DNA from: Fervidobacterium pennivorans
GTDB lineage: Bacteria; Thermotogota; Thermotogae; Thermotogales; Fervidobacteriaceae
Direction of reading: 5' to 3'
Assembly: GCF_001644665.1 (NCBI RefSeq)
Contig: NZ_CP011393.1
Span: forward strand, 704,001 to 768,000
DNA length: 64,000 nt
The position numbers and the translations under genes were made by a program. Of the stretch, positions 22,128 to 32,951 are shown one piece after another (positions within the stretch are counted from its first letter, which is position 1; each line of letters begins with the position of its first letter). The notes below the pieces were generated by a model, which was given only the letters and a program-made list of their open reading frames with translations, was not told the origin of the DNA and did not search any database.

Positions 22128-22646
22128 ATGGAATTAAAAGATGTCATCTTAAAACGGAGAAGTATAAGAAGGTTCAAAGATAAGGAAGTCTCACCAGAAA
22201 CTCTTTTAGAAATTGCAAGGTATGCTTTGTTGGCTCCGAGTGGGAGGAACTCAAAACCTGTCGATTTGATTATAGTGACTGAAAAAGACAAAATCGAGCG
22301 TATAATGAAAGCAAGAGAAGGAGCGTTTTCGTTCCTAAAAACCGCACCTGCATGTATAGTTGTTACTGCAAGTGAAGCCAGTTCAACCTGGATGTCAGAT
22401 GCCTCTATAGTGGCAACGTATATACAACTTCTGTGTGTTGATTACGGTCTTGGAAGCTGCTGGGGCCATGCACATGATCGTTTCCAAGATGGAGTGTCAG
22501 TTGAAGGGAAGATTAAAGAGCTTGTTGGTATTCCAGATGGTTACAGGGTACTTTGCGTAATAGGAATTGGATATCCGGACGAAGAAAAAAATGCGCATAC
22601 GTTAAAAGATGTTGATAATAACAAAATTCATATTGAGAAATGGTAG
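22128..22646 (+). CDS. Nitroreductase family FMN protein
   Basis: 172 residues, an FMN-dependent NAD(P)H oxidoreductase of the nitroreductase fold. N-terminal LKRRSIRRFKDKEVSPE and APSGRNSKPVDL (FMN phosphate contacts), middle DASIVATYIQLLCVDYGLGSCW, and the C-terminal LCVIGIGYPDEEK are typical. The real substrate is unknown; these proteins reduce quinones, flavins, nitro groups or enones. ATG follows AGGAGG. The DUF4438 gene starts 42 bases on, probably in the same transcript. Confidence 0.88.
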   Translation: MELKDVILKRRSIRRFKDKEVSPETLLEIARYALLAPSGRNSKPVDLIIVTEKDKIERIMKAREGAFSFLKTAPACIVVTASEASSTWMSDASIVATYIQLLCVDYGLGSCWGHAHDRFQDGVSVEGKIKELVGIPDGYRVLCVIGIGYPDEEKNAHTLKDVDNNKIHIEKW

Positions 22647-22687: not shown

Positions 22688-23575
22688 ATGAAAGAAGTTA
22701 ACAAGAAGAAACAAAACAGTTCTATCAAAACAAACAAAGACCAAGTTGTTCAGCTTTCAATATTGGTAGAAATAGCACACCCGGTTGTCCGTATGCCAGT
22801 TGTTGATGGTAATGGCAATTCGTTTTACATTCCCGGTGTTGGAGGTATCACATACAACTTCGGGCTTGGTGACAATGCATTCAAGATGCACGGTGACCAT
22901 ATCGAACCTGATGTTAGCGCCAAAAACAAAGACAAGGACTTAAATCCCACTTGTATGGCTCTTGCATGTATTGGGAACGAAGCAGCAGTAATATCCGGAG
23001 ATGCGAAAGGCATGAAAGGATACGTAATAGGAAAGCATGGAGGAATAGACCATATATTAATCTGGTTTCCAGAGAAAGAAAAATTAGCAGTTGGAGATAA
23101 GATACAGATTAAAGCCTGGGGACAAGGGCTTGAAATTGTTAACTATCCAGAAGTCAAAGTCATGAATATAGATCCAGATTTGTTTGAGAAGATACCGATA
23201 AAAATTAAGAATAGTAAATTGCAAGTTCCAGTTACTGCTATCGTTCCTGCACACCTAACGGGTTCTGGAATCGGAGCTGGTAATCCATCAGCTACTGACT
23301 ATGATATGAATACTTTGGATAAAGAAGAAATTAAGAAGTTCAAACTCGATAAAGTAAGGATAGGAGATTTAGTTGCAATATCAGACCACTACAACGGTTA
23401 CGGAGCCGGAGGTTACAAAGAAGGTGCCGTTTCGATAGGTGTTGTCGTTCATTCGAATTGCTACAAAACAGGACACGGTCCAGGGATGGTGATAATAATG
23501 ACCTCAAAAGAAGGAGACATAGTGCCAGTTCTCGATAAAGATAGTAATATAAAAAACTACCTCAATATACGTTGA
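22688..23575 (+). CDS. DUF4438 domain protein (TM1086-like)
   Basis: 295 residues. The whole chain from about residue 20 matches, as far as I recognise it, the DUF4438 family whose Thermotoga member TM1086 was a structural-genomics target; biochemical function is unknown. Glycine-rich conserved pieces include IPGVGGITYNFGLGDNAF, GDHIEPDVSA, GKHGGIDHI and GAGGYKEGAVSIGVVVHSNC. The first 20 residues are a basic, disordered-looking tail (KEVNKKKQNSSIKTNKDQ). ATG follows GGAGGG. Closed by a strong terminator. Confidence 0.75.
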   Translation: MKEVNKKKQNSSIKTNKDQVVQLSILVEIAHPVVRMPVVDGNGNSFYIPGVGGITYNFGLGDNAFKMHGDHIEPDVSAKNKDKDLNPTCMALACIGNEAAVISGDAKGMKGYVIGKHGGIDHILIWFPEKEKLAVGDKIQIKAWGQGLEIVNYPEVKVMNIDPDLFEKIPIKIKNSKLQVPVTAIVPAHLTGSGIGAGNPSATDYDMNTLDKEEIKKFKLDKVRIGDLVAISDHYNGYGAGGYKEGAVSIGVVVHSNCYKTGHGPGMVIIMTSKEGDIVPVLDKDSNIKNYLNIR

Positions 23576-23600: not shown

Positions 23601-23630
23601 ATCCCACCCGGCAACGGGTGGGATTTCTAT
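23601..23630 (+). terminator. Intrinsic terminator after DUF4438 gene
   Basis: ATCCCACCCG (23601-23610), loop GCAA, CGGGTGGGAT (23615-23624), then TTCTATT. A perfect 10-bp stem with a tetraloop. Confidence 0.88.
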
Positions 23631-23769: not shown

Positions 23770-23808
23770 CTGAAAGGTGATTCATATAAAATATAATATA
23801 TGATTCAT
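23770..23808 (+). promoter_or_regulatory. Putative promoter with overlapping repeat operator
   Basis: -35 CTGAAA (23770-23775), 16-base spacer, -10 TATAAT (23792-23797). Two copies of TGATTCAT (23778-23785 and 23801-23808) flank the -10 box, and ATTCATATA/TATATGATT form an imperfect inverted repeat around it. A good candidate for control by the TetR-type regulator encoded one gene downstream, but the link is inference. Confidence 0.5.
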
Positions 23809-23863: not shown

Positions 23864-24847
23864 ATGAAGTACGCAAAGATTATTTCCTCTGGGATGTACG
23901 TTCCTAAAAAAGTGATGACGAACGCGGAGTTTGAAAAGTTAACGATGTTTACTATTGACCCATATTTCTCAGATGCGATTGGTATCAATCACAGACATAT
24001 TTCAGAAGATTGGGAAACTCCTACTTATATGGCTGCAGAAGCTGCGAAGAAGGCACTCGCGCGAATTGGTATGAAACCGGAAGAAATTGATTTGATTATC
24101 GTTGGTACAGATACTCCGGAAGCGGTATCCCCACCAGATGCTCCAAGGGTTCAGTACCTCATAGGTGCCCACAAAGCAGAACCACTCGCTTTCAATGTAA
24201 ACGCATCATGTGCAAATGGAGCGTTAATGCTTGATATCGCAGCAAGGTATATAGCCATGGGGGATTACAAAAATGTCCTCGTTATAGGTACATATGCGAT
24301 GACTAAGTTCCTAAGTTGGAAATATTCATGGGAAGCTCTTTTTAGTGATGGCGCAGGTGCATTGATACTTACAGCATCAGATGAACCAGGGTTTATAGGT
24401 AGTGTGGCGCGTGCAGACGGTAGTTGGTGGCAAAACTGGGGAATATACATGGGAGCAGGCACCATGAATTTGGCAGGTTTTGAAAGAGGACTTCACAAAT
24501 TGGACCTTAGAGCTGCTTATCCATCTACAGTCAATGAGGAAGGATGGCCTATGTTGATTAATAAACTTATGGAAAAATACAACATCACAAAAGACGAAAT
24601 TGGTATGATATTCTTTACGCAAGTAAGGAAAAAGACTATTGAAAAAGTTATGGAAACACTTGGACTGCCAATAGAAAGAGCACATATGATTATGCATAAG
24701 TACGGCTACACTGGTTCTGCATGTGTCTATATGGCTTACGATGACGCATTTGACGAAGGAAAGATAGAGCAACTAGAAGGCAAGGTAGTTATCTTCTTGA
24801 CATCCGGTGTTGGGTATCAGCAAGTTGCTACTGCTTTTAGAATGTGA
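23864..24847 (+). CDS. Ketoacyl synthase III-like protein lacking the usual His and Asn
   Basis: 327 residues with the thiolase fold of FabH. The nucleophile is kept in NASCANGA (Cys116), and the C-terminal glycine-rich end resembles FabH. However, the catalytic His of the usual HQAN motif is Thr252 (FFTQVRKK), and the catalytic Asn of YGNTSA is Tyr282 (KYGYTGSA). It may still form an acyl-enzyme, but standard decarboxylating condensation is doubtful; acyl transfer or a thiolysis-like reaction are options. It is not next to other fatty-acid genes. Instead it opens a cluster with a TetR-type regulator, a CoA-transferase and an ABC importer. ATG follows CGAGGAGG. Confidence 0.8.
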   Translation: MKYAKIISSGMYVPKKVMTNAEFEKLTMFTIDPYFSDAIGINHRHISEDWETPTYMAAEAAKKALARIGMKPEEIDLIIVGTDTPEAVSPPDAPRVQYLIGAHKAEPLAFNVNASCANGALMLDIAARYIAMGDYKNVLVIGTYAMTKFLSWKYSWEALFSDGAGALILTASDEPGFIGSVARADGSWWQNWGIYMGAGTMNLAGFERGLHKLDLRAAYPSTVNEEGWPMLINKLMEKYNITKDEIGMIFFTQVRKKTIEKVMETLGLPIERAHMIMHKYGYTGSACVYMAYDDAFDEGKIEQLEGKVVIFLTSGVGYQQVATAFRM

Positions 24848-24914: not shown

Positions 24915-26156
24915 GTGAAGAAGAGAGAAATGCCTCAGAAAAATGTAAAAATTACTAGAAATAAAAAAGCAAAAAGGATACCTCAACGTGCTGATGGTAT
25001 AGAATCTAAGAATAAACTAAAGAAGGCTGCCATAGGACTTCTTAGTAAAAACAGCTTTTCCAACGTGTCCATTTCACAAATTACTAAGCATGCTGGCTTG
25101 AGCACTGCTGCCTTTTATCAATACTACATTAACAAGGATGAGTTGTTTCGAGAGATTGTTGACGATTTCATAAGAGACCTCAAACATTCATTGGAAGGAG
25201 AGTCTATAACAGATGTCGCACTAAAATACTTTGAATACTGCAAGAGAAATAAGAACTTAATCCAAGCCATACACCTCAACGAATATCATTTCGAATGGTT
25301 GAGGAACGAATTTGAAGATGTAATACAATCTATCTCAGAAAAGCATGGCTTAACTGATGTTGGGCTCTTCTACTTCTGGTCACCAATAAGGTTTGTAATT
25401 AACTTCGGGGAGTTGTTGGGTGTAAAGGTAGAACCTAATGTTCTTTTATCGCTCATTGTAAACGGTATTCAGAAAGAAAAGAAGGAGTTGCAAAATCTTC
25501 CGAAAGAGGTATTTACATTCACACCCGAAAAACATGTTCTCGAAGTTGATGAAAAACGAGAATTAATACTTGCAAATGCAGAAAGCTTGTTTGGAACTTA
25601 TGGTTACCAAAAAACGCAGATATATGACATCGCAAAGGCATCAGGAATCGGGGTTGGGACTATATATCTATACTTTGAAAATAAAAAGGAAATCTTACGT
25701 GAATTAGTACGATGGATAAATAAGGGGCTAAGATACAACGTTAGAAAAGCCATGGAAAATGTTAAACAGTATCCAAGGTTAGTTCAGGAAATAGCCGGGT
25801 TGTACGCCTTTGTCCAGTTCTTCAAAAGTCACGCAAACATGTATAAAATCGTCAGAGAAAGCCAGTCATTAGATTTAGAGATTGCGAAAGATTATTACAC
25901 ATCAATATTTATTCCTTACTGCAAAGCTTTAGAAAACTCATTTAATGACGGGAAACTCCAACTAAATTCGGAAAAATTCGGGACTATCGACACAAAAAGC
26001 ATTTTGCAATATATTGCTATGCTATTAATGGGAATTGGTCATTACTTGGGTGAACGATATATTCTTGCAGGCAAAGTTTCTGATACAGAAAAGTTGGAAC
26101 GTTTTTTGGAAGATATCTACGTTTACCTCTCCAAAAGCTTGGGGGTGGCAATGTGA
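24915..26156 (+). CDS. Tandem double-TetR transcriptional regulator
   Basis: 413 residues, about twice a normal TetR protein. Two separate TetR DNA-binding domains are visible: about 33-80 (KNKLKKAAIGLLSKNSFSNV, ITKHAGLSTAAFYQYYINKDELF) and about 213-262 (KRELILANAESLFGTYGYQK, IAKASGIGVGTIYLYFENKKEIL). Each is followed by a helical segment of 120-150 residues that would be its ligand domain. The first 30 residues are very basic. One chain could act as an intramolecular dimer. Start GTG 24915 has GGAGG 10 bases ahead. Its stop overlaps the CoA-transferase start by 4 bases. Confidence 0.88.
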   Translation: MKKREMPQKNVKITRNKKAKRIPQRADGIESKNKLKKAAIGLLSKNSFSNVSISQITKHAGLSTAAFYQYYINKDELFREIVDDFIRDLKHSLEGESITDVALKYFEYCKRNKNLIQAIHLNEYHFEWLRNEFEDVIQSISEKHGLTDVGLFYFWSPIRFVINFGELLGVKVEPNVLLSLIVNGIQKEKKELQNLPKEVFTFTPEKHVLEVDEKRELILANAESLFGTYGYQKTQIYDIAKASGIGVGTIYLYFENKKEILRELVRWINKGLRYNVRKAMENVKQYPRLVQEIAGLYAFVQFFKSHANMYKIVRESQSLDLEIAKDYYTSIFIPYCKALENSFNDGKLQLNSEKFGTIDTKSILQYIAMLLMGIGHYLGERYILAGKVSDTEKLERFLEDIYVYLSKSLGVAM

Positions 26157-27436
26157 ATCTAAGAGAGGAATATGAAAAGAAACTTACTGATATTGACAAG
26201 GTGTTGTCAATCCTTCAAGATAACTGGACAATCGTTGTTGGGATGACTCCCATGGAGCCGAAAGTTTTCCTGAGAAACTTGCATCGAACGCAAGCTAGTG
26301 GCCTTGAAATCTACACATGTTTAAACACAGAGCCTTATGAATTTTGTTCAAACGAAGAATATTTCAATAGATTTTACAACTATTCTTGGTTTTTCGGACC
26401 TTACAACCGAAAGCTTTCAAAAAACACATATTATGTTCCAAACAATCTGCACCAAGCTGGTATGAACCTTATACAATCTACTAAGATAAACGTTTTTGTT
26501 GGGGTAGCCTCTCCTATGGATGAAAAAGGGTTCTTCACATTGTCGGCAAGTGTTGTCTACGAGAAGGATGTGCTTGAGAATGCAGATATAGTTGTCCTCG
26601 AAGTAAATCCAAACGCTCCAAGAACTCATGGTGATACTCACGTCCACATTTCCGAAGTTGATTACATAGTGGAGGTAGACTATCCTTTGCCACAAGCAGA
26701 GCTTCTCGAACCAGCCGAAGTTGAGAAAAAGATAGCAGAACATATTGTGGAACTTATAGAAGATGGTGCGACTATTCAACTTGGAATTGGCGGGATACCA
26801 AATGCTGTTGCGAAGTTCTTAGTTGACAAAAAAGATTTAGGTATACACACAGAGATGTTCACGGAGAGTATGATAGACCTCTTTGAAGCAGGAGTTATCA
26901 CGAATAAGAAAAAAACTCTTTGGAACGGAAAGTTCGTATGTACTTTTGCTTATGGCAGCCAGAGAATGTATAAGTTCATCGATGATAATCCATCAGTGCT
27001 ATTTTTGAGAGGCAGGTATGTGAACGACCCCTACATCATAGCCCAAAACGACAAAATGGTCAGTATAAACACTGCACTCATGGTTGATTTGACAGGAAAT
27101 GTTTGCTCCGAAGCAATTGGAACAAGTCATTACAGTGGTACAGGCGGTCAACTGGACACTCATAGGGGAGCTGTAAAGAGCAAAGGAGGCAAGGGCATTA
27201 TAGCAATGAGGTCTACTGCAAAAGATGGTCAGGTCTCCACGATAGTTCCGTTACTTCCACAAGGGTCACCCATCACGGTTCCACGGCAAGAACTGGATTA
27301 CGTTGTGACAGAGTGGGGTGCGGTAAGACTTAGAGGATTACCAACAAGGAAACGTGCACTTGCGTTAATATCAATAGCGCATCCAGATTTTCGTGATTAC
27401 TTAACAAAAGAGGCTCAAAAACTGGGATTAATCTGA
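26153..27436 (+). CDS. Acetyl-CoA hydrolase/4-hydroxybutyrate CoA-transferase family
   Basis: 427 residues of the class I CoA-transferase family. QLGIGGIPNAVAKFL forms the CoA-binding loop; LGIHTEMFTESMIDLFEAG includes the segment expected to hold the catalytic Glu; GTSHYSGTGGQLD, GSPITVPRQELDYVVTEWG and LRGLPTRKRALALISIAHPDFR are conserved in this family. It moves CoA between acetyl-CoA and another carboxylate, so it would activate an imported acid or recover CoA. Start GTG 26153 overlaps the regulator stop (GTGA) and is preceded by GGGGGTGG. Confidence 0.88.
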   Translation: MNLREEYEKKLTDIDKVLSILQDNWTIVVGMTPMEPKVFLRNLHRTQASGLEIYTCLNTEPYEFCSNEEYFNRFYNYSWFFGPYNRKLSKNTYYVPNNLHQAGMNLIQSTKINVFVGVASPMDEKGFFTLSASVVYEKDVLENADIVVLEVNPNAPRTHGDTHVHISEVDYIVEVDYPLPQAELLEPAEVEKKIAEHIVELIEDGATIQLGIGGIPNAVAKFLVDKKDLGIHTEMFTESMIDLFEAGVITNKKKTLWNGKFVCTFAYGSQRMYKFIDDNPSVLFLRGRYVNDPYIIAQNDKMVSINTALMVDLTGNVCSEAIGTSHYSGTGGQLDTHRGAVKSKGGKGIIAMRSTAKDGQVSTIVPLLPQGSPITVPRQELDYVVTEWGAVRLRGLPTRKRALALISIAHPDFRDYLTKEAQKLGLI

Positions 27437-27491
27437 GTGTGTAGAGCTCATTTTTGCTACCATTTTCATTCCATCATAGGAGGTGGGTTGT

Positions 27492-28652
27492 ATGAAAAAG
27501 TTGTTAAGTGTTATTCTTATGCTCGTCTTTTTGGTAAGCTTGTTTGCTGAAGTTGGGGTTTATAACGACAAAGTTGTTATTGGAACATTCCAAGCGTTGT
27601 CCGGTCCTTATGCAATCATCGGGCAAGAGATGAGCAAAGGAATGAAAGCGTACTTCAACTGGATTAACAGCAGAGGTGGTATCCATGGGAGAAAAATAGA
27701 ACTAATAATCGCTGATGACCAACTCAACCCAGCAAAGACTGTTGTTGAGGTCAAGAGGCTAGTTGAGCAAGACAAAGTCTTTGCAATTGTCGGTGGACTC
27801 GGAACTTATGGCTGTTTGGCAGTTATGGATTACCTCGAACAGAACAAAGTTCCATTTGTGTATCAGGGTGCGGGAACATCAAAACTCGTTATTCCTCCGA
27901 AAAAATACATCTTCGGTGTACAACCAGACTACACTCTTGAAGGAACACTTATCGGTAAGTACGTAGGAGAGATTGCGAAATTCAAAAATCCAGCAATCGT
28001 TTACATGAACAACGATATTGGTTTAGAAGGTTATGCTGCTTTTAAAGCTAAGCTTGAAGACTACAAAATGAAACCAGTTGTTGAGATTTCCTACAACCCA
28101 GCTGATACAGATTACAGCGGACTTGTTGTAAAGCTTGTTGAGAAGAATCCAGACGTTATTGTTATCTATGGACTTATTACAGACACAATAAGATGGGTTA
28201 AAACAATTCGCGACTATGGTCTTGATAGCAAGATAATCACCATCTATCCGAATGCTGACCCATCTTTCATCAAATTAGCTGGTAAATACGCTGAAGGTGT
28301 TATTTTTACAGGATGGGTGCCACTCGCGACTCCTGATAGGCCAGAATTTGTTAGAGATTATCAAAGAGCCATATCTATTTATCAACAAACATACCCGAAA
28401 GAAATAATGTCCTCATATGCAGTTGCCGGGTTTATTGCAGCAGAGGTATTCACAGAAGGCTTGATTAGGACTGGAAAGAACTTGACAAGGGAAGGTCTTG
28501 TGAAGGCTCTTGAAAGTTTCAAAAACTGGAATGGTATACTTGCAAAAGATATTACGTGGGGTCCAAACCTGAGACGCGGTAAGTCCTCAATGTATTTCAT
28601 GGTTGTTAAGAACGGTCAATTTGTGCCTCTCACCGACTTAATTAGACCATGA
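27492..28652 (+). CDS. ABC transporter substrate-binding protein, branched-chain amino acid type
   Basis: 386 residues. An N-terminal signal peptide (KKLLSVILMLVFLVSLFA, no lipobox cysteine evident) precedes a type I periplasmic fold: VVIGTFQALSGPYAIIGQEM, INSRGGIHGRKIELIIADDQ, AIVGGLGTYGCLAV. This is the LivK/HAAT family, whose members bind branched-chain amino acids, amides, urea or organic and aromatic acids. The specific ligand cannot be read here; the CoA-transferase next door hints at a carboxylate. Start ATG 27492 follows AGGAGGTG; the upstream GTG lies within that site. A strong hairpin separates it from the transporter genes. Confidence 0.9.
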   Translation: MKKLLSVILMLVFLVSLFAEVGVYNDKVVIGTFQALSGPYAIIGQEMSKGMKAYFNWINSRGGIHGRKIELIIADDQLNPAKTVVEVKRLVEQDKVFAIVGGLGTYGCLAVMDYLEQNKVPFVYQGAGTSKLVIPPKKYIFGVQPDYTLEGTLIGKYVGEIAKFKNPAIVYMNNDIGLEGYAAFKAKLEDYKMKPVVEISYNPADTDYSGLVVKLVEKNPDVIVIYGLITDTIRWVKTIRDYGLDSKIITIYPNADPSFIKLAGKYAEGVIFTGWVPLATPDRPEFVRDYQRAISIYQQTYPKEIMSSYAVAGFIAAEVFTEGLIRTGKNLTREGLVKALESFKNWNGILAKDITWGPNLRRGKSSMYFMVVKNGQFVPLTDLIRP

Positions 28653-28784: not shown

Positions 28785-28846
28785 GTAAGTAAGGTAAGAA
28801 TGAAGTCGAACAACGGCAACATTAAAAAAACGGGAGTTGAGAAGTG

Positions 28847-29611
28847 ATGCTAAAGCTTGAGAATATAACGGTTAGGTTTTCTGGACTTGTGGCAGTTGAC
28901 AACCTTTCGATGGAAGTCAAGGAAAAAACCATACATTCCCTGATAGGACCCAACGGTGCTGGCAAAACCACTGTTTTTAACGCCATATCTGGATTGGTTA
29001 AACACGATGGGAGTATTATCCTTGATGGCAAGGATATCACTCACGTGCCGGTTCACAAAAGAGTTTATCATGGTCTTGGAAGAAGTTTCCAGAACATCAT
29101 TATCTTCAAATATATGACCGTATTACAGAATTTAATGCTTGGGTATCACTCGAAATTGGATTACAATCATTTCGATGAAGTTATGTATACGAGTAGATTC
29201 TCATTGGAGGAACGAAAGGCAAGATTGAAAGCTATAGAAGTAGCTGATTTACTTGGTATAAAGAGCATACTGGGAGTTTACGCTGGAACACTTCCATACG
29301 GTTTCCAAAAACTCATCGACGTCGGAAGAGCGCTTATGACTGAGCCAAAAATACTCCTTCTTGACGAACCTGCTGCAGGTTTGACCGAGAAGGAATCAGA
29401 TATTCTCAAAGAGAGAATCATTAAGATAAAAGATAGGGGGATTACTGTTTTTCTCATTGAACACGATATGCGCATGGTGCTCGATATATCGGACAGAATA
29501 ACTGTAATTAATTTTGGAAAAAAGATTGCGGAAGGTACAGCTCAAGATGTTATCAATAACGAAGAAGTTATAAAAGCGTACCTTGGTTCAGGTACAGCAA
29601 CAACCCAATAA
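28847..29611 (+). CDS. ABC transporter ATPase, LivG family
   Basis: 254 residues, one of the two cytoplasmic ATPases of a branched-chain-type importer. Walker A GPNGAGKTT, LivG-type GRSFQNIIIF, signature region YGFQKLIDVGRAL (Phe in place of the usual Gln), Walker B ILLLDEPAAGLTEKE, and H-loop FLIEHDMRMV. ATG 28847 follows CGGGAG. Next gene begins 21 bases on. Confidence 0.9.
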   Translation: MLKLENITVRFSGLVAVDNLSMEVKEKTIHSLIGPNGAGKTTVFNAISGLVKHDGSIILDGKDITHVPVHKRVYHGLGRSFQNIIIFKYMTVLQNLMLGYHSKLDYNHFDEVMYTSRFSLEERKARLKAIEVADLLGIKSILGVYAGTLPYGFQKLIDVGRALMTEPKILLLDEPAAGLTEKESDILKERIIKIKDRGITVFLIEHDMRMVLDISDRITVINFGKKIAEGTAQDVINNEEVIKAYLGSGTATTQ

Positions 29612-29632
29612 TGGTTCAGAGAGGTGAAAACA

Positions 29633-30361
29633 ATGAAGTTTTTTCAACGAACAGACACTAAGGACATTTTAGTCAAGGGGCTTAATGTCTGGTATGGACC
29701 TGTTCATGCTGTAAAAGGTATAGACCTAAACATTCCAGCTGGAAGCGTAACGGCCATACTTGGTGCCAATGGAGCGGGCAAAAGTTCAACATTAAAAGCT
29801 ATTGTTGGAAGTGTCAAATACAATGGAACAATAATCCTTGGAAATGAATCTATAGATGCTCTACCTGTTCACGAAAGAGTAAAAAAGGGAGTTGTGTTGT
29901 GTCCAGAAGGTAGAGGGATATTTTACCAAATGACTGTAAAAGAAAACCTCTTGGCAGGGGCTTATACAAACAAGACCCCAAACTTCGACTTCGTTTTTGA
30001 TATCTTTCCATTCTTAAAAGAACGGCTCAACCAAATAGCAGGTACTTTATCAGGTGGAGAACAACAAATGTTAGCAATTGCAAGAGCCCTGATGGCAAAT
30101 CCTAAATACTTGCTCCTCGATGAGCCTTCGCTTGGATTGGCTCCTATCGTTATTGAGAAGATTGTAGAAGTAATAAAACATGTCAACGAGTCTTTGAAAA
30201 TTACTGTTGTACTTGTGGAACAAAACACATCCGTAGCTCTCGGCATTGCACATTATGGTTATGTTTTAGAAAACGGAAGAGTGGCACTTTCTGGCAATGC
30301 GGAAGAGCTTAAAGATAACCCAGTTGTTCGCGAGAAATATCTTGGGGGTGTTAGAAAGTGA
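29633..30361 (+). CDS. ABC transporter ATPase, LivF family
   Basis: 242 residues, second ATPase of the importer. Walker A GANGAGKSST, CPEGRGIFYQMTVKENL, signature LSGGEQQMLAIARAL, Walker B YLLLDEPSLGLAP, and VVLVEQNTSVAL are typical of LivF. Start ATG 29633 has GAGGTG 7 bases ahead; the GTG at 29624 falls in the ribosome site. Its stop overlaps the LivH start by 4 bases (GTGA). Confidence 0.92.
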   Translation: MKFFQRTDTKDILVKGLNVWYGPVHAVKGIDLNIPAGSVTAILGANGAGKSSTLKAIVGSVKYNGTIILGNESIDALPVHERVKKGVVLCPEGRGIFYQMTVKENLLAGAYTNKTPNFDFVFDIFPFLKERLNQIAGTLSGGEQQMLAIARALMANPKYLLLDEPSLGLAPIVIEKIVEVIKHVNESLKITVVLVEQNTSVALGIAHYGYVLENGRVALSGNAEELKDNPVVREKYLGGVRK

Positions 30362-31236
30362 TAAACCAAATACTTCTTGGCCTTTCAACAGGTGCTATGT
30401 ATTCATTAGTCGCTATAGGGCTTGTCATGATGTATAAAGTGAGTGGTGTTATGAACTTCGCTTACGGAAATATGGGGATGTTCATGACTTATGTAATTTG
30501 GTGGTTGAGTTCTTCAATTGGGCTCAATATATTTGTTTCCATAGCATTAGGAATAATATTTGCTGCTCTCATAGGTATTTTAGTAGAACGATACGGCTTG
30601 AGACCAATAAGACATCTTTCTCACGGTTCGATGCTTATCGTTACGTTTGGAATACTCATGATTTTGGAAGGGTTGGCTGTCCAACTCTGGGGGACTGAAT
30701 ATAAATCATTCCCTGAGCTTATAACGGGTGCTCCATATGTGATAAAGGGAGATTTTGGAATAATGGTTATTCGTAGGCAAGATATATTGGTCTTTTCAAT
30801 ACTTGCAGTGGTTTCAATTGCCATCGCTCTGTTTACTAAGTTTACCAAGTTTGGTATCGCCGTTCGTGCAGTTTCAGAGAATGAGGAAATTGCAAGCTAT
30901 ATGGGTATAAATGTGGGGTCTGTTCTAGCATTTTCTTGGGCTTTTGGAACGGCTATGGCTGCACTGGTAGGAGTAATTGCCGCACCTAAAGTTTTCGTCT
31001 CACCAACAATGCTTACATTCTATCAAATACAAGGTTTCACAGCTGCTGTCTTGGGCGGATTTGAAACATTTACTGGAGCAGTTTTCGGTGGCTTGCTGTT
31101 AGGTGTCATAGAGAAAATCGTGGGTAATTACATTTCTGAAGGTTTTAAGGCATCGATTTCGTTGGTTATCATAGTGATGGTCTTGGTCTTTTTCCCGAAT
31201 GGCTTGTTTGGAAGAAGAGTAAGGAGGCGAGCTTGA
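30358..31236 (+). CDS. ABC transporter permease, LivH family
   Basis: 292 residues, about eight membrane helices. Family motifs: GLSTGAMYSLVAIGLVMMYK, GVMNFAYGNMGMFMTY, AVSENEEIASYMGINV (cytoplasmic coupling loop), AAVLGGFETFTGAVFGGLLLG. Start GTG 30358 overlaps the LivF stop. Its own TGA overlaps the ATG of the next gene by one base, so translation of the two permeases is coupled. Confidence 0.92.
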   Translation: MINQILLGLSTGAMYSLVAIGLVMMYKVSGVMNFAYGNMGMFMTYVIWWLSSSIGLNIFVSIALGIIFAALIGILVERYGLRPIRHLSHGSMLIVTFGILMILEGLAVQLWGTEYKSFPELITGAPYVIKGDFGIMVIRRQDILVFSILAVVSIAIALFTKFTKFGIAVRAVSENEEIASYMGINVGSVLAFSWAFGTAMAALVGVIAAPKVFVSPTMLTFYQIQGFTAAVLGGFETFTGAVFGGLLLGVIEKIVGNYISEGFKASISLVIIVMVLVFFPNGLFGRRVRRRA

Positions 31237-32951
31237 TGCTTTGGATTTGGTTGATACTAGCGTTGTTGCCATTTTTGCTACTAAAAAGTGCTTTCATAAT
31301 TACCATACTTAGCCTTGTAGGAATTTACGCGCTCGCCACATTAGGTTTAAACTTGATTATGGGATATTCAGGGCAAATATCAATAGGTCACGCAGCCTTT
31401 ATGAGCATAGGTGCTTACACTTCCACTTTGCTTGTTATGCAGTACAACATTCCTGTTGTGTTTGGAATAATATTGGGTGGAATAACAGCTTTTATCTTTG
31501 GTATTTTAATAGGTTTCCCTGCACTGAGATTGTCAGGCTTTTACCTTGCCATCGCAACAATGGGGTTTGTTGTTGCTATTGAACAACTCTTCAGTTACCT
31601 TGAACACATTACAGGCGGGCATGCAGGGATAAGGAACATACCTTTTCCCTTCTTATGGAATTCCGACGTAGAAAAGTATCTGTTAGTATTTGCTTTCTTA
31701 TTCGTCGCTTACGTTGTTGCTGATAGGCTAATAAACTCCAAAACCGGACGTGCTTGGATGGCAGTTAGGGAGAACGAAATTGCAGCATCTGTGATGGGTG
31801 TAAATATTGCATGGTACAAAGTCCTTGCTTTTGCAATTGGTTCCATGTTCGCTGGTATAGCTGGTGCACTTTATGCACATGTTATCGGTTACATAGCGCC
31901 AAGTGATTTTGGAATAGCAAAATCTCTCGACTTATTGGCTATATCTGTTATAGGTGGTATGGCATCAATAGATGGTCCTTTCTACGGGGCGCTCATTTAT
32001 GTTGCTATGCCATTTTTGTTTAGTAGGTCAAACTTCTCTCTCTCAATCATTTTTGGAGCTTTGCTTATCTTCGTTGTTCTCTTTATGCCATTAGGGATAA
32101 GTTTCTACGTAAAAATATTCAGAATGAACTATTTCAACGCTCTTATAGCGTATCTAAAAAAATCCAGGAGACCATTTGGGATGTTTGTTCAAACTCCCGT
32201 TGGGCGAATACACTATATTAAACATGGAAGCGGAAATATCCCGGTTGTATTAGTCCATGGTAACTTCGCTTCTTCCAGATTTTTTGAGCCATTGATAAAA
32301 AAAATTCCAGAACACCAATTCACGGTTTATGCACTCGATCTGCCAAATTTTGGTTTCTCGGATGAACTCCCAGGGGATGTAAGTATTGAAAAATACGTTG
32401 ATGCGTTGGAAAGCTTTGTGAAAACGCTCGGGATAAACAATTTCATATTGCTTGGTCATTCTTTAGGTGGAGCAGTTGCCATGGGATACGCCATAAGACA
32501 TTCCAAAAACTTAGCTAAATTGGTATTGGTTGACCCTGCACCGATTTTTGGCATGCCACGTTACGATGAATCGGCTTACAAAATTATAGATGTTTATAGG
32601 AAAAATCCAGATATGATTAAGCGGGCCTTGATGATGAACGCTCCGAATTACGATGATGAGGAGTTCTTTGACAGAATAACATCAGATGCCCTAAGAATGG
32701 CAAAGAAAGCGTTCATAGGTAATGCAAAAGCCCTAGCTGATTATAACTACATAGATAAAGCAGTGTTATTAGAAGTGCCTGTTGTAGTAATTTACGGTGA
32801 TAAAGATGTTATACTTGATTATGAAAGCATGAAGAAAACAGCGGAAGCCTTTCCAAAAGGTAAGTTGATAGTGCTGAAAGATATCGGGCATAGTCCGGTT
32901 ATAGAAGCACCAGAAAAGGTTATAAAACATCTCACAGATATAGTAACATAA
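31236..32951 (+). CDS. LivM permease fused to a C-terminal alpha/beta hydrolase
   Basis: 571 residues. Residues 1-~300 are a LivM permease: LNLIMGYSGQISIGHAAFMSIGA in its first half, FYLAIATMGFVVAIEQLF, AVRENEIAASVMGVN, ISVIGGMASIDGPFYGAL. From about 314 a complete alpha/beta hydrolase follows, with oxyanion loop VHGNFAS, nucleophile in GHSLGG (Ser409), acid in YGDKDVIL (Asp524) and IGHSPVIEAP (His552). The linker is basic (KIFRMN...YLKKSRR), so the hydrolase should face the cytoplasm. An internal ATG at 32181 has AGGAG 10 bases before it and could also give a free hydrolase. Such a fusion is unusual for this transporter family. The hydrolase may act on the imported compound (inference). Confidence 0.92.
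   Translation: MLWIWLILALLPFLLLKSAFIITILSLVGIYALATLGLNLIMGYSGQISIGHAAFMSIGAYTSTLLVMQYNIPVVFGIILGGITAFIFGILIGFPALRLSGFYLAIATMGFVVAIEQLFSYLEHITGGHAGIRNIPFPFLWNSDVEKYLLVFAFLFVAYVVADRLINSKTGRAWMAVRENEIAASVMGVNIAWYKVLAFAIGSMFAGIAGALYAHVIGYIAPSDFGIAKSLDLLAISVIGGMASIDGPFYGALIYVAMPFLFSRSNFSLSIIFGALLIFVVLFMPLGISFYVKIFRMNYFNALIAYLKKSRRPFGMFVQTPVGRIHYIKHGSGNIPVVLVHGNFASSRFFEPLIKKIPEHQFTVYALDLPNFGFSDELPGDVSIEKYVDALESFVKTLGINNFILLGHSLGGAVAMGYAIRHSKNLAKLVLVDPAPIFGMPRYDESAYKIIDVYRKNPDMIKRALMMNAPNYDDEEFFDRITSDALRMAKKAFIGNAKALADYNYIDKAVLLEVPVVVIYGDKDVILDYESMKKTAEAFPKGKLIVLKDIGHSPVIEAPEKVIKHLTDIVT

Follow-up and report, generated by a model that had tools for sequence, protein, structure and literature searches.

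The window analysed here, a stretch of 64,000 nucleotides from Fervidobacterium pennivorans (genome of 2.06 Mb, one contig), encodes a KASIII-like protein in which the nucleophilic cysteine of FabH is kept, while the other two residues of the Cys-His-Asn triad are replaced by threonine and tyrosine, a combination found in 27 of 27 orthologs. The gene of this protein, hereafter C/T/Y KASIII, belongs to an uncharacterised and probably catabolic operon, together with a CoA-transferase and a Liv-type importer. The best reading of these data, to which we give an even chance of being correct, is that C/T/Y KASIII is an acyl-transfer enzyme working through an acyl-cysteine in the breakdown of a small hydroxy acid or ester that the cell imports, without malonyl-decarboxylating Claisen condensation.

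The KASIII fold and its active site

The ATG of the ORF is preceded by a strong Shine-Dalgarno sequence (GAGGAGG), and the product carries the Pfam domains PF08545 (ACP_syn_III) and PF08541 (ACP_syn_III_C), which identify a KASIII fold. In the AF2 model (pLDDT 86.4, pTM 0.89; residues 195-212 are unreliable) the best fold matches in the PDB were FabHs, with TM 0.89-0.95 and about 30% sequence identity; the protein is probably a homodimer. The sequence-only reading had proposed that Cys116 is retained in an otherwise intact fold and that His and Asn have become Thr252 and Tyr282, and the model and the alignments confirmed both points. In a MAFFT alignment that included further FabHs, Cys112, His244 and Asn274 of the E. 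coli enzyme correspond to Cys116, Thr252 and Tyr282, the last two being 30 residues apart in both proteins, and HMMER alignments to solved FabHs gave the same placement. All the FabH comparators in the alignment retain the three canonical residues.

Other positions are changed as well. Asn247 and Pro243 of FabH are replaced by Arg and Phe, and Arg36 and Arg151, which hold CoA in FabH, correspond in the C/T/Y family to a variable position and to an invariant Tyr, respectively. Asp83, in the GTDTPE motif, shows no variation within the family; it shares a column with the GTES/ATES Glu that is catalytic in HMG-CoA synthases, a site at which the FabHs are variable. Thus, of the Glu-Cys-His set of HMG-CoA synthase, the protein has an Asp in the Glu column and the Cys, and lacks the His. 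The GHxGxxDQ motif and Cys-His-Asp triad of the CerJ/ChlB3 type are also absent, the corresponding segment reading GYTGSAC. The invariant Asp83 and the loss of the two arginines were not part of the sequence-only reading, nor were the LivM-hydrolase fusion and the second altered KASIII family, PRK06840, found in the same operon type and described below.

The protein scored under the cut-offs of the curated FabH models (188.5 vs 249 bits for NF006829 and 167.5 vs 292.1 bits for TIGR00747), of the PRK06840 model NF005308 (117.6 bits, cut-off 315) and of the HMG-CoA synthase model TIGR01835 (27.9 bits, cut-off 360.35).

Conservation and operon context

Close orthologs, with at least 67% identity to the query, were found in 27 of the 103 Thermotogota genomes searched; the 27 proteins come from as many genomes in five family groups, and their pairwise identity is 65-99%. 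The closest named relatives belong to a Thermotogota MAG (89% identity) and to Fervidobacterium MAGs (83-84%). The motifs GTDTPE, NASCANGA, FTQVR(K/R) and GYTGSACVYMA are present in all 27, and dN/dS was 0.02-0.04 in the five computable pairs out of ten tried, four others having saturated synonymous sites and one (L051-L052) being out of register. The invariant residues and motifs, together with the low dN/dS, indicate that the replacement has been fixed and maintained, and rule out decay. With the intact fold and a context other than fatty-acid synthesis, they argue for a changed reaction, as had been suggested earlier, the putative nature of which is treated in the next section.

In a scan of genome contigs, matches above 35% identity were confined to Thermotogota, except for a short partial stretch (L024, 42%), the scan being insensitive enough to miss known orthologs. 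A degenerate DNA motif for the family had no hit in any of 399 genomes belonging to one other phylum, nor in any of 10 others, in a non-exhaustive sampling. Our literature search returned no paper on C/T/Y KASIII or its gene combination, and the passages retrieved from a multi-omics study on keratin in F. islandicum make no mention of the operon.

In the window the genes follow the order nitroreductase, DUF4438, hairpin, KASIII, double-TetR, CoA-transferase, LivK, LivG, LivF, LivH and LivM-hydrolase (Table 1). The partners are therefore, as had been noted earlier, a CoA-transferase and an importer and not those of fatty-acid synthesis, and they are conserved. The CoA-transferase is nearest to the 4-hydroxybutyrate CoA-transferases. 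Other families have the arrangement double-TetR, CoA-transferase, thiolase, FabG-like reductase, LivKG(F)H, LivM-hydrolase and KASIII, at times followed by a second hydrolase; the operon of these relatives thus adds FabG-like and PhaA-like (thiolase) genes, whose orthologs (74% identity) lie as a pair elsewhere in the F. pennivorans genome. A direct repeat seen by eye upstream of the KASIII ORF, TGATTCAT (23778-23808, 23 bases apart), overlaps the promoter-like site and is a possible TetR operator.

Table 1. Coordinates of the features discussed, in the window unless a contig handle (L) is given
Feature	Position	Strand	Basis and remarks
Nitroreductase-family protein	22128..22646	+	family scan; neighbour only in Fervidobacterium-type layout
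DUF4438 protein	22688..23575	+	family scan; neighbour only in Fervidobacterium-type layout
Terminator-like hairpin, 10 bp	23601..23624	+	between DUF4438 gene and KASIII operon; consensus scan only
Promoter-like site CTGAAA-16-TATAAT	23770..23797	+	upstream of KASIII ORF; the region has no more of such sites than shuffles do
C/T/Y-family KASIII-like protein	23864..24847	+	ORF of 327 aa; alignment, family scan, structure model
Asp83 codon	24110..24112	+	GTDTPE motif, column of HMG-CoA synthase catalytic Glu; arithmetic from ORF start, alignment
Cys116 codon	24209..24211	+	nucleophile position, NASCANGA motif; arithmetic, alignment
Thr252 codon	24617..24619	+	in place of FabH His244; arithmetic, alignment
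Tyr282 codon	24707..24709	+	in place of FabH Asn274; arithmetic, alignment
Protein with two TetR DNA-binding domains in one polypeptide	24915..26156	+	family scan; conserved with operon
4-hydroxybutyrate-type CoA-transferase	26153..27436	+	family scan, closest-relative comparison
LivK-type periplasmic binding protein	27483..28652	+	family scan
LivG-type ATPase	28844..29611	+	translation and conserved order
LivF-type ATPase	29624..30361	+	translation and conserved order
LivH-type permease	30358..31236	+	translation and conserved order
LivM permease with fused C-terminal alpha/beta-hydrolase	31233..32951	+	family scan, structure match, alignment
Thermotogota PRK06840 examples with ChlB3-type Cys-His-Asp motif	L060:4025-5092; L109:5417-6430; L110:8713-9759		

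The LivM-hydrolase gene encodes an ABC importer component bearing its own hydrolase domain. The closest solved structure to this domain is a poly(3-hydroxybutyrate) depolymerase (E 3e-24), at a score under the NCBIfam PHA-depolymerase cut-off (132 vs 300 bits), and the motifs of the nucleophile-elbow Ser, the Asp and the His are present in the eight fusions aligned. Strong matches to the fusion (E 1e-90 or better), part of which are partial and at contig ends, were found in 53 of the 103 Thermotogota genomes. C/T/Y KASIII or PRK06840 occurs in all 53 of these, four of them or of the other carriers (G033, G041, G072 and G073) being scored for PRK06840 from fragments and two of the four having a C/T/Y protein too, vs 18 of the 50 genomes without the fusion, the remaining 32 having neither (Fisher p 4e-14, a value that ignores relatedness).

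PRK06840 (NF005308) occupies the same operon type in other Thermotogota families and in one family shares a single cluster with C/T/Y KASIII. It keeps the Cys, whereas the His of the triad is replaced by Leu and the Asn by a His, the latter inside a GH(M/L/I)GQNDQ motif that aligns with GHLGASDQ of ChlB3. CerJ and ChlB3 have the KASIII fold and a Cys-His-Asp triad and act as acyltransferases (PMC9573744); because of this motif, the NCBIfam label of PRK06840, 3-oxoacyl-ACP synthase, is probably misleading. The two families share 21-26% identity. In a tree rooted with HMG-CoA synthases they are sisters (93/89), but long branches are joined, so that this relationship is only suggestive; in a tree without them C/T/Y KASIII, PRK06840 and FabH form three separate clades. 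A single clade of the C/T/Y family with Thermotogota FabHs was rejected by the AU test (p 5e-5).

Candidate functions

In both FabH and PqsBC the Cys is loaded first with the acyl group, and His and Asn serve the decarboxylation of the second substrate (malonyl in FabH); removal of the His of PqsC barely slows the acylation of its Cys (77 vs 87 per s) (PMC4807248). A KASIII with the Cys only could thus still load an acyl group, but should decarboxylate malonyl poorly, and such a site, considered with the operon partners, favours acyl transfer in hydroxy acid or ester catabolism. We infer from this the formation of acyl-Cys, the acyl transfer, the direction of the pathway and the class of substrate. 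A small hydroxy acid or ester would be imported via LivKGFH-LivM, the LivM-fused esterase-like domain would hydrolyse an imported ester, and the CoA-transferase would activate the hydroxy acid, with FabG-like oxidation and PhaA-like thiolysis to follow; C/T/Y KASIII would form an acyl-Cys116 intermediate and transfer the acyl group by a ping-pong mechanism, with a thioester or ester as donor and a thiol, a hydroxyl or water as acceptor. This reading is supported by the invariant C/T/Y and Asp83 and the low dN/dS, by the existence of KASIII-fold acyltransferases, by the replacement of Arg36 and Arg151, by PRK06840, with its ChlB3-like motif, in the same operon type, by the CoA-transferase, the Liv importer, the LivM-hydrolase and the FabG and thiolase of the relatives, by the orthologs of the latter two elsewhere in the genome, and by the co-occurrence in 53 of 53 fusion-bearing genomes. 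On the other hand, the Cys-His-Asp triad of CerJ and ChlB3 is missing, FabG, thiolase and CoA-transferase would by themselves be enough for 3-hydroxybutyrate breakdown, the fused hydrolase falls short of the PHA-depolymerase cut-off, and the co-occurrence value ignores relatedness.

Moreover, Asp83 could serve C-C chemistry instead. The main rival, which we regard as rather unlikely, is indeed an enzyme like HMG-CoA synthase or thiolase, in which Asp83 would act as acid/base on acyl-Cys116 for an aldol or Claisen reaction, or the reverse, with no decarboxylation. The conservation of this residue in the catalytic Glu column, variable in FabHs, and the beta-keto acid enzymes in the operon of the relatives agree with it, but HMG-CoA synthase also requires an active-site His, here Thr, and the profile score lies far under the cut-off of that family. 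A bolder reading, unlikely in our opinion, would see in Cys116, Asp83 and Tyr282, with neither His nor Asn, an active-site arrangement new to the thiolase fold, catabolic and conserving bond energy, for example by using CoA for the thiolysis of hydroxyacyl esters brought in by the importer (the ester formation of CerJ reversed), beside a hydrolase-bearing ABC importer. It is quite doubtful that the protein is a thioesterase or quality-control hydrolase, releasing the acyl group of Cys116 to water and clearing stalled acyl-CoAs: both condensation residues are lost, and ChlB3 also freed acyl groups from SNAC substrates (PMC9573744), but the operon already has one alpha/beta-hydrolase domain and, in some relatives, a second. 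A non-catalytic binding or regulatory protein retaining the fold would fit the absence of two of the three catalytic residues and has a precedent in PqsB, in which the KASIII fold persists without any triad residue (PMC4807248); yet, in contrast to PqsB, all 27 orthologs keep Cys116 and the NASCANGA motif unchanged, and the genome offers no other KASIII as catalytic partner, which makes this explanation decidedly unlikely. The single PF08545 match also rules out, in this genome, a PqsBC-like heterodimer with another KASIII.

That C/T/Y KASIII is an ordinary FabH with a relaxed active site, starting fatty-acid synthesis, appears very improbable. The overall fold, the identity of about 30% and its being the only KASIII of the genome, in which one FabF-type synthase is also present, are in line with this possibility; however, both decarboxylation residues are missing, the curated FabH cut-offs are not reached and there are no neighbours for fatty-acid synthesis. 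Furthermore, a control search of Thermotoga maritima with PF08545 gave no match, and 21 of the 103 Thermotogota genomes had no match to the C/T/Y protein at E 0.001, which indicates that fatty-acid synthesis in the phylum is independent of it. In other Thermotogota, FabH-like proteins with Cys, His and Asn retained lie in differently composed loci, with gene sizes of the fatty-acid synthesis type and some FabG-like reductases; by family scan this make-up was confirmed only for two loci, both carrying Phe in place of the nucleophilic Cys. FabH-like proteins of the latter kind, with His and Asn kept, were observed at L103:5364-6281, L105:4555-5412, L106:4796-5890 and L107:5105-5986, and may be starter enzymes of fatty-acid synthesis that act by decarboxylation. 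The order in L107 is FabF, DegV-like, FabZ-like, Phe-type FabH-like, FabK-like and FabD-like, and the L105 protein has FabF-, FabK- and FabD-like neighbours.

By family score C/T/Y KASIII would be called 3-oxoacyl-ACP synthase, as PRK06840 already is, and such labels probably misstate the roles of both families and how fatty-acid synthesis begins in these bacteria. Should the acyl-transfer reading be right, an active site without His or Asn would be added to the KASIII fold, and this fold would be tied to nutrient import in a deep-branching phylum of thermophiles. A testable question is raised on the role of an acyl-Cys KASIII after the evolutionary loss of both decarboxylation residues.

Comparison with known systems

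C/T/Y KASIII resembles FabH in fold, length, position of the nucleophilic Cys and overall identity, and differs from it at His244, Asn274, Asn247, Arg36 and Arg151, and in its operon. With HMG-CoA synthase it has in common the thiolase fold, the Cys and an acidic residue in the catalytic Glu column, but it has no His and scores far under the cut-off. CerJ and ChlB3 share with it the KASIII fold, the retained Cys and an altered canonical triad, and their ping-pong acyl transfer is the reaction that we propose; however, theirs is a Cys-His-Asp triad, and Tyr282 and Cys287 stand where ChlB3 has the His and Asp of its motif. PRK06840 is similar in its Thermotogota operon type and in its sister position in the HMG-CoA synthase-rooted tree, and differs in that Leu and His take the places of the Thr and Tyr of C/T/Y KASIII. 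Finally, PqsBC is also KASIII-like with an altered triad and a Cys whose acylation needs no His, but it is a heterodimer in which PqsC keeps its His, whereas C/T/Y KASIII has none at this site and is the single KASIII of its genome.
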